Made by a program: the position numbers and the translations under genes
Assembly (NCBI GenBank): GCA_002011165.2
Contig: MTMI02000003.1
Coordinates: 277,117 to 341,116, forward strand
Length of the DNA stretch: 64,000 nt
Reading direction: 5' to 3'
Origin: Candidatus Mnemosynella biddleae
GTDB taxonomy: Archaea; Halobacteriota; Archaeoglobi; Mnemosynellales; Mnemosynellaceae
In this document: positions 28,053 through 60,758 of the stretch, piece after piece
Layout of the letters: each line of letters begins with the position of its first letter
How positions within the stretch are numbered: position 1 is the first letter of the stretch
The notes under the pieces: model-generated
Databases searched by the model: none
Seen by the model: only the letters and a program-made list of their open reading frames with translations
Told to the model about the DNA's origin: nothing

Positions 28053-28070
28053 AAGATCACCTTTTTCAGA

Positions 28071-28280
28071 GACTGTGCCTCAACACTAACTCTGGATGCT
28101 CATCCCTTGGCATAAGCCGCAGTCGCATCCAGTGACCCGTGCTGAGGCTGTTCCACACCGGGGTTGTCCGCTTTCATCGGGAGGTAATCCTCTCTCACGC
28201 GGAAGACACGTCGGTGTGGTGTTGCTCCACCCTCGCACCGGTGCTCACCGATCGCACCAGTCCTCGTAGATGGAGCAAGA
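28071..28280 (-). ncRNA. Triple-hairpin H/ACA guide sRNA
   Basis: Three abutting hairpins (28220-28278, 28149-28219, 28074-28148), each ending in ACA exactly 15 nt after the upper stem and with GA..UGA K-turn/K-loop in the upper stem; AT-rich promoter with TTTAAA upstream; guides match 23S helix 69 and PTC. Confidence 0.88.
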
Positions 28281-28302
28281 GAAATTTCGATTTAAGAATA
28301 CT

Positions 28303-29550
28303 TTAAATTTCTCTTCCCGAACCTTTTGATGCCAGAATGCCCTCATCAAAAATGACTTCACCTCTTCTCATAACAACTCTTGGGTGAACTGCAGGAAAGC
28401 CCTCATAGGGGGTCCATCCACACTTGCTGTGGAGATTTTTTGCTTCTATCCTCCGCTCTTTCTTCTCAAAAACCACAATATCTGCATAGAATCCTTTTTC
28501 TATCCTTCCTCTCTTCTCGATTCCAAAAATCTTAGCGGGACTCTCGCATCCTATCCTCAAAAGGGTCAGAAGAGGGATTTCTCCTCTCTTCACCAGTCTC
28601 ATCATCAGAGGTATCATCGTCTCAATCCCTGGAAGTCCAGATGCTCCCTCTTCCTTTTCCTCAAGAGTATGAGGAGCGTGATCCGAGGCCAAAACATCAA
28701 CTGAACTTAGATTTTCTCTGAGAAATTTCACATGAGTTTCATCTCTGAGTGGAGGATTTACGATTCCGAGTTTTCCCAATCTTTTGTAATCCTTCACACT
28801 GAGAAGAAGATGATGAGGTGCAACCTCAGAGGTTGCTGAAGAATTTGATATTATCTTCAGAGCTTCTCTGGTGGAGATATGAGAGAAATGCACATCATTA
28901 GAGAGTTCAAGAACTTTTTTAACTGCGATGAGCTCGCATTCTGGAGGTCTTGCTAGAGAGTGACTCTCCGGTCTCTCGCTTTTCAGATGTGAGAGCCTTC
29001 TGATTATCTCTCCATCTTCTGCGTGCACGCAGATCTTCTTTCCTCTGAGAACTCTAAGAGCCTCTTTAAGCTCTTCATAACTCACTTCAAGATTTCCAGT
29101 TGAAGGTCCCAAAAAGACTTCTCCAAATGCAAATGCTTTATCTCTGAGTTTCTCAAGCTTTCTCAAATTTCCTCTTATTCCAACATTTATTCCAAAGTCG
29201 GCTATCGATTTTCTCTTTGCCTCCCTTCTCTTCATTTCAAAACTCTTTAAATCGAGCGTAGGAGGTCTCGTATTTGGCTGATCTACAACAACCGTAACTC
29301 CTCCTGCTATTGCAGCACAAGATCCCGTAAACCAGTCCTCTTTGTGAGTGTCCCCGGGATCTCTGAAGTGAACGTGCACATCTATGAATCCCGGAGTTAC
29401 AAGAGCTCCCTCAGCATCTATTTCCTCATCTCCTTTGACGATTTTCCTTATACAGCTTATCTTCTCACCATCTATTCCTATTTCAGCTGAGATCAAAGAA
29501 CCATGATAAAATATTCTGGCGTTTTTTATGGCAATCTCCGCATCACTCAT
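28303..29550 (-). CDS. pyrC: Dihydroorotase
   Basis: VTPGFIDVHVHFRDPGDTHKEDWFTGSCAAIAGGVTVVVDQPNT; LASDHAPHTLEEK. Confidence 0.95.
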   Translation of the reverse strand: MSDAEIAIKNARIFYHGSLISAEIGIDGEKISCIRKIVKGDEEIDAEGALVTPGFIDVHVHFRDPGDTHKEDWFTGSCAAIAGGVTVVVDQPNTRPPTLDLKSFEMKRREAKRKSIADFGINVGIRGNLRKLEKLRDKAFAFGEVFLGPSTGNLEVSYEELKEALRVLRGKKICVHAEDGEIIRRLSHLKSERPESHSLARPPECELIAVKKVLELSNDVHFSHISTREALKIISNSSATSEVAPHHLLLSVKDYKRLGKLGIVNPPLRDETHVKFLRENLSSVDVLASDHAPHTLEEKEEGASGLPGIETMIPLMMRLVKRGEIPLLTLLRIGCESPAKIFGIEKRGRIEKGFYADIVVFEKKERRIEAKNLHSKCGWTPYEGFPAVHPRVVMRRGEVIFDEGILASKGSGREI

Positions 29551-58775: not shown

Positions 58776-59666
58776 TCACCCCAAAAATCTTGTTGTAAAT
58801 TCTGTCTCTAGACCCTTAACGGAAAACTCGTACTCTTTTCCACCGTACTCAAAGAATAGCTTTAGAGTCATCTCTATTTCCGTTTTTTCTCCACCTTTAA
58901 TATGAGACGCCCACCAATCGTCCAAGAGAGTGTTATTTATGAAGATGCTGAGATCAAGATCCGTCTCAGAATTGGAAGTCATAATTACTGGCTCATTAGA
59001 TCTTCCTTCTGCAATTCTGAGATTGTTCATGGTCATATAACACTCAAGCTTCGAGAGAGGTATGTCTATGGGATTCTCGTTTTTGACTCTTATATTGAGG
59101 ATGATCTCAGATGTTTCATTGGTGATCTTGCCCCATCTGGGTTCAACAGACTCTAAAGTGAGCTTTAAAAATCCAAAATTGATTGTCTGGGGAGAGCTCA
59201 GAGATAATTTAGAGAGAATGTGGGTTTCTACGTCTTCTCTTTTTTCTATCGGAACTTTGAACTCAAAGAGCTTAAGATCAAATACTAAATCCGCTTTTAT
59301 TAGGAGCTCCGTAAATTCTCCATTTCTCAGATGTGATATCCACCACTCAGGAATCTTATTATTATCTATCTTCGTTGAGATGATGATCTTCGATATACCA
59401 TTTGCTTTTATTTCAGCAGTTTCTGCAGATCCTTCGCCCATCTTTATCCCATTCATGTATATCTCTGTCAAAATATCCTTCAAAGGTATTGGAACGGGAT
59501 TTGGATTATAAACTTCTATTATGGTTTTTATTTCGGTAAAGGAGTTACTAACTTCGCCGAAAGTAAAAGAGACGTCTCTTATCTCAGGTTTTCCAAGCTG
59601 AATCTGCTCGGTGCATCCTGAGAGTGAGATTAGGACGAGAAGGAGAACTAAAATCTTTAACTTCAT
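58776..59666 (-). CDS. Lipoprotein with two LEA14/WHy-type domains
   Basis: LISLSGCTEQ lipobox; VYNPNPVPIPLKDILTEIYMNGIKMGEG and VKNENPIDIPLSKLECYMTMNNLRIAEG repeats. Confidence 0.88.
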   Translation of the reverse strand: MKLKILVLLLVLISLSGCTEQIQLGKPEIRDVSFTFGEVSNSFTEIKTIIEVYNPNPVPIPLKDILTEIYMNGIKMGEGSAETAEIKANGISKIIISTKIDNNKIPEWWISHLRNGEFTELLIKADLVFDLKLFEFKVPIEKREDVETHILSKLSLSSPQTINFGFLKLTLESVEPRWGKITNETSEIILNIRVKNENPIDIPLSKLECYMTMNNLRIAEGRSNEPVIMTSNSETDLDLSIFINNTLLDDWWASHIKGGEKTEIEMTLKLFFEYGGKEYEFSVKGLETEFTTRFLG

Positions 59667-59726: not shown

Positions 59727-59785
59727 GGGCCTCAGTTTAAAGCCGATCCTCATTGTTCAGATCGCCCGTCACTCCTCACAGGCCC
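59727..59785 (-). ncRNA. C/D box sRNA
   Basis: GGGCC-U-GUGAGGA(C)-GUGACGGGCGAU-CUGA(D')-ACA-AUGAGGA(C')-UCGGCUUUAAA-CUGA(D)-GGCCC; guides 12 and 11 nt; TATA-like TTATAAAATT upstream. Confidence 0.9.
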
Positions 59786-59942
59786 ATAGAAAATGTTTTC
59801 CCCGAATTTTATAATTTTATTCCCAAAAGAGTTATCATAGGAAAAACTTTAAGTAATTTGAAGGATGAAAAGGACTTGCCGTAAAGATATCTCTTTTTTA
59901 AGGGATATTTTTGCGGTGATAATCTTAGAGAGGTGAGAATAA

Positions 59943-60203: not shown

Positions 60204-60758
60204 ATGGAAGCTCTGATAGTTGTGGATATGCAAAAAGATTTTCTCGAACCTGAGGGAAAACTTTACGGTGGAGAGAGGGTAAGAAGTGTCATTCCGAAAG
60301 TTAGAGAGGCGATTAATTTCTCTCGAGATTTCATGCCGATTATCTGCACTCAGGACTGGCACAGAAAAGATGATGAAGAGTTCTCCCTTTGGCCTCCCCA
60401 CTGCATAGAAGGGAGTCCCGGTGCTGAGATAGTAGAGGAGATTGGAGTAAAAGAGGAGGACATATTCGTTAAAAAGAGGAGGTATTCCGCATTTTTCTCA
60501 ACTGATTTAGATCTGATTTTAAGGGAGAAGAACATCAGAAAACTCTGGATATGTGGAGTCCTTACGAACATCTGCGTTCTTCATACTATAGCTGACGCAA
60601 GGTCTCTGAACTACGAAGTCGGTCTTCTTAAAGATTGCACTGAAGCTTTGAATGATTATGACTACAAATATGCTGTTCATCACATTACAAACGTTCTCGG
60701 AGCAGAAGTGATAACTCTTGAGACTTTCTTCTCGTTGAGAGAAGAGGATGTAGGATGA
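60204..60758 (+). CDS. Nicotinamidase/isochorismatase family hydrolase
   Basis: EALIVVDMQKDFLEPEGKLYGG; IICTQDWHRKDDEEFSLWPPHCIEGSPGAE; LWICGVLTNICVLHTIADAR. Confidence 0.94.
   Translation: MEALIVVDMQKDFLEPEGKLYGGERVRSVIPKVREAINFSRDFMPIICTQDWHRKDDEEFSLWPPHCIEGSPGAEIVEEIGVKEEDIFVKKRRYSAFFSTDLDLILREKNIRKLWICGVLTNICVLHTIADARSLNYEVGLLKDCTEALNDYDYKYAVHHITNVLGAEVITLETFFSLREEDVG

Follow-up and report, generated by a model that had tools for sequence, protein, structure and literature searches.

We analyzed a 64,000-nt stretch of the Candidatus Mnemosynella biddleae genome (referred to as the window) and examined the segment that separates an LEA_2 lipoprotein gene from an isochorismatase-family gene near its right end. 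On the minus strand, this segment reads GGGCC-U-GUGAGGA-GUGACGGGCGAU-CUGA-ACA-AUGAGGA-UCGGCUUUAAA-CUGA-GGCCC (59727-59785) and carries boxes C, D', C' and D in order, a short spacer between D' and C', and a GGGCC/GGCCC stem flanking boxes C and D (Table 1). While the D and D' boxes are exact CUGA, C and C' are each one substitution away from consensus (RUGAGGA). The first-pass annotation had described these boxes, guides of 12 and 11 nt and the same terminal stem, all of which we found exactly as described on the minus strand; the GAGGA variant that it reported in both C and C' was likewise present, and we observed this form in the C and C' boxes of relatives as well. Folded alone, the RNA preferred hairpins other than the C/D architecture, which is not unexpected given that C/D RNA is protein-dependent.

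Table 1 Features of the sRNA locus (window positions; strand as read in the window).
Feature	Position	Strand	Basis or remark
Box C/D sRNA, 59 nt	59727..59785	-	Box order and class orthologues
Terminal stem, 5' half, GGGCC	59781..59785	-	Complementary to GGCCC at 59727-59731
Box C, GUGAGGA (RUGAUGA variant)	59773..59779	-	Sequence motif
D' guide, GUGACGGGCGAU, 12 nt	59761..59772	-	Complementary to 16S 1400-1409 through positions 3-12; position 5 opposite C1402
Box D', CUGA	59757..59760	-	Exact consensus
D'-C' spacer, ACA, 3 nt	59754..59756	-	Same length in 47/51 class sequences
Box C', AUGAGGA	59747..59753	-	Sequence motif
D guide, UCGGCUUUAAA, 11 nt	59736..59746	-	Differs from the class GGGAGAG-type D guide
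Box D, CUGA	59732..59735	-	Exact consensus
Terminal stem, 3' half, GGCCC	59727..59731	-	Pairs with GGGCC
TATA-like promoter element, TTATAAAAT	59805..59813	-	About 26 nt upstream of the 5' half of the stem
Downstream neighbour, LEA_2 lipoprotein gene	58776..59666	-	Homologue close to the sRNA at 7 loci of relatives
Upstream neighbour, isochorismatase-family gene	60204..60758	+	Homologue close to the sRNA at 12 loci of relatives

We next asked how this arrangement compares with chance and with known RNAs. A strict double-guide C/D pattern, RTGAKGA-(9-13)-CYGA-(2-9)-RTGAKGA-(9-13)-CTGA, matched once in the 64-kb window and never in 60 Markov-simulated windows with the same nearest-neighbour statistics. 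With the archaeal box C/D sRNAs of the Pyrococcus and Sulfolobus sR families, the RNA shares its box order, spacings, stem, two guides and length of about 59 nt. We nonetheless rejected membership in an Rfam sR family, as scores fell below the gathering threshold of every family; the best match, sR1, aligned end to end at 21.8 bits versus a threshold of 45. The window sRNA differs from sR1, sR9, sR3 and sR14 in its guides and in having RUGAGGA as both C and C' box. Elsewhere in the window, we noted an H/ACA-type RNA, HgcG (Pab40), at 28069-28335 on the minus strand (98.4 bits, above the gathering score).

Across the family, 53 distinct sequences preceding the stem had an A/T content of 87-100% at −28 to −23, in keeping with an archaeal TATA box. 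The isochorismatase-family and LEA_2 genes both lie close to the sRNA at two loci (L044 and L045). The neighbours do not keep the same orientation towards the sRNA in the window and in its relatives, indicating that the neighbourhood has been rearranged.

Having established the anatomy, we turned to the target of the D' guide, which the first-pass annotation had placed at 16S C1402. As the 16S gene of the window genome is itself absent from the assembly, we deduced the 10-bp match from relatives: the guide would pair with 16S 1400-1409 (E. coli numbering, segment CGCCCGUCAC) and, under the geometry of C/D guides (10-12 nt, target at box+5), would place C1402 at the methylated position. Amongst the six class relatives with a 16S gene, the target region reads CGCCCGUCAA in five and CGCCCGUCAC in one (G002); all six share the core CGCCCGUCA, followed by A in the five and C in G002. 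Thus, the segment, earlier described as universal, is so as far as 1408, whereas position 1409 varies. Since the window guide starts with G, as does that of G002, the window genome's own 16S might also carry C at 1409, a weak prediction because the matching guide position is little constrained in the family. In raw complementarity, the D' guide scored 28.0, compared to a maximum of 27.0 among 60 shuffled guides. This margin is narrow; it is comparative conservation, rather than raw complementarity, that provides the strong evidence for the D' guide.

To that comparative evidence, the scans contributed as follows. An exact scan without wobble matched this genome only and suggested an orphan gene, a reading we discarded once a mismatch-tolerant scan revealed a class-wide family. 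Using a pattern that allowed up to two mismatches, we recovered an orthologous sRNA in 53 of the 59 genomes of the class. An exact pattern allowing the wobble (R at the wobble position) matched 52 of 59 class genomes and none of the 338 other genomes of the phylum, and a reversed control pattern gave 0 matches. We then determined guide-position statistics from 51 distinct class sequences, counting positions upstream from box D'. Positions 4-7, 9, 10 and 11 of the D' guide were invariant and position 3 was G in 50/51, while positions 1 and 12 were free to vary; position 2 was A in 50/51 even though it is unpaired with 16S C1399. Position 8 (window 59768) was U in 50/51, forming a G.U wobble with G1405, and was C only in the window sequence, where it gives a Watson-Crick pair. 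This pattern is the trace left by a guide-target duplex of 9-10 bp held at a fixed distance from D', and the near-invariant positions 3-11 agree with the duplexes of 8-10 bp described as best for methylation in vitro (PMC7089733, citing Yang 2016). Outside the guide, the stem is kept at the same place in nearly all sequences (GCC/GGC in 39/51, CCC/GGG in G001). Box C is AUGAUGA in 48/51 and AUGAGGA in 2/51, and the GAGGA form of box C' recurs in three further C' boxes of the class.

The genome also encodes the proteins of a C/D RNP, namely L7Ae, Nop5 and fibrillarin, with the fibrillarin gene adjoining the Nop5 gene in an operon and two L7Ae-family genes present. The fibrillarin gene (L003:1492-1995, minus strand) encodes only some 167-179 aa, which align to homologues starting near residue 50, such that the N-terminal domain appears to be lacking or its start miscalled; Nop5, at 243 aa, is likewise short, and is colinear with the short chain 1nt2_B. 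In bacteria, C1402 is 2'-O-methylated by the protein RsmI, which together with RsmH yields m4Cm1402; the same residue is reached there by a stand-alone protein enzyme. The RsmI model TIGR00096, which detected bacterial RsmI controls, found no match in the window genome and none over the cut-off in 40 relatives. Support for assigning the D' guide to C1402 comes from the anatomy, the constancy of guide positions 3-11 throughout the class and the conserved promoter-like block, and further from the genes for C/D RNP proteins and from RsmI not having been found.

We conclude that 59727-59785 is very probably an archaeal box C/D sRNA with its own promoter that guides 2'-O-methylation of 16S C1402. 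Its anatomy, the conservation of its guide, the protein genes and the complementarity to relatives' 16S are direct observations. From these we infer transcription, RNP assembly and methylation of C1402 in this organism, which would proceed as follows: the sRNA would be transcribed from its own promoter, L7Ae would bind both kink-turns (C/D and C'/D') and be joined by Nop5 and fibrillarin, the D' guide would pair with 16S 1400-1409, and fibrillarin would 2'-O-methylate C1402 in the P-site/decoding region.

We also explored what the second guide might contribute. For the D guide, we found no convincing target in 16S, 23S (the genome's partial 23S included) or 46 tRNAs, with a best tRNA match of 18.8 versus a 95% null of 21.6 and a best rRNA match of 20.8 versus 22.8. 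In most relatives, the D guide is of a GGGAGAG type that fits 23S GCUCUCCCCAU, 3' of the peptidyl-transferase centre, perfectly over 10 bp in G004 and over a shorter stretch, of about 7-8 bp, in three others (G005, G011 and G019); amongst these matches, that of G004 alone lies above the shuffle range. The guide departs from this type in the window, G001 and G038, and in the window lineage it appears to have been replaced and to be currently orphan. In the genome's own 23S fragment (L096, G000:C7:1-1628), E. coli position 2350 or so appears to be followed directly by about 2580, leaving out the peptidyl-transferase segment, probably through assembly collapse.

The behavior of the D guide bears on two other accounts of the sRNA. 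One holds that it is mainly an rRNA folding chaperone whose guides, during assembly, transiently engage the decoding-site strand together with another site in rRNA, with methylation secondary. Double-guide chaperoning has already been proposed for archaeal C/D sRNAs (PMC4644070), and a D guide of the class type, by fitting 23S, could bridge 16S and 23S together with D'. We consider this improbable, as the window has retained its D' guide while its D guide no longer fits the 23S site, the D guide-23S match stays inside the shuffle range except in G004, and a conserved duplex at fixed distance to box D' points to methylation. A similarly small chance attaches to the idea that the main target in this lineage is a different one (e.g., a tRNA or mRNA) reached via the D guide: tRNA-targeting sRNAs often have one target-less guide (PMC7994747) and the D guide of the window lineage is entirely altered, but its best matches lie below the null and the D' guide is still fully matched. 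Finally, although a 10-nt complement by itself barely exceeds shuffled guides, the notion that intergenic DNA came to resemble C/D boxes and a 16S complement by mere chance is refuted, with next to no probability left to it, by the empty simulated windows, the orthologues across the class and a near-invariant guide between drifting flanks.

Returning to an sRNA that guides methylation of C1402, we searched 85,488 species genomes for TGAKGANTGACGGGCGNNCTGA and obtained 21 loci, 20 of them archaeal, where we estimate about four chance matches to be expected; a Rhizobium locus looks like one of these. Loci in Thermoplasmatota (Methanomassiliicoccales and relatives) are full C/D sRNAs whose D guide is the one for 1402, and three Thermoproteota loci hold the guide core in an sRNA that, by eye, is less complete.

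The first-pass annotation had implied that an RNA-guided archaeal counterpart of the RsmI site would be new, but most of this is known. P. abyssi Cm1376, modelled from cryo-EM and confirmed as Cm by LC-HRMS, corresponds to E. coli m4Cm1402, yeast Cm1639 and human Cm1703 (PMC7005279, Table 4), and a 2024 review, citing Gaspin 2000, gives P. abyssi 'Cm1369' as the Cm1402 equivalent (PMC11542601). A P. abyssi guide for this site would serve the same modified residue in an archaeon. Human 18S C1703 is guided by SNORD43 (PMC7114786) and the equivalent Arabidopsis residue, 18S Cm1645, by AtU43 (PMC11542601); these U43 RNAs are likewise C/D RNAs guiding Cm at the 1402 equivalent, but differ in being eukaryotic snoRNAs.

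Cm at the 1402 equivalent is already documented in other species (PMC7005279), and this type of RNA is known as well; the window sRNA is a well-supported further member of that type, with unusually broad conservation. The novelty lies in the class-wide conservation of this C1402 guide and in its presence in other archaeal phyla. Bacteria use the protein RsmI to 2'-O-methylate C1402 and eukaryotes a guide RNA, and the modification is also present in Pyrococcus. It is conceivable, though doubtful, that the C1402 guide is ancient, inherited through the archaea (the window class, Thermoplasmatota and Thermoproteota) and homologous to eukaryotic U43, with its strength tuned, in the window class, by the conserved G.U wobble opposite G1405. 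A survey of seven archaea reported no single methylation site common to all (PMC7994747). The conservation of the guide through the class, and its recurrence in other phyla, where it occupies the other guide position, suggest that C1402 is one of the methylation sites that archaea have retained more steadily.
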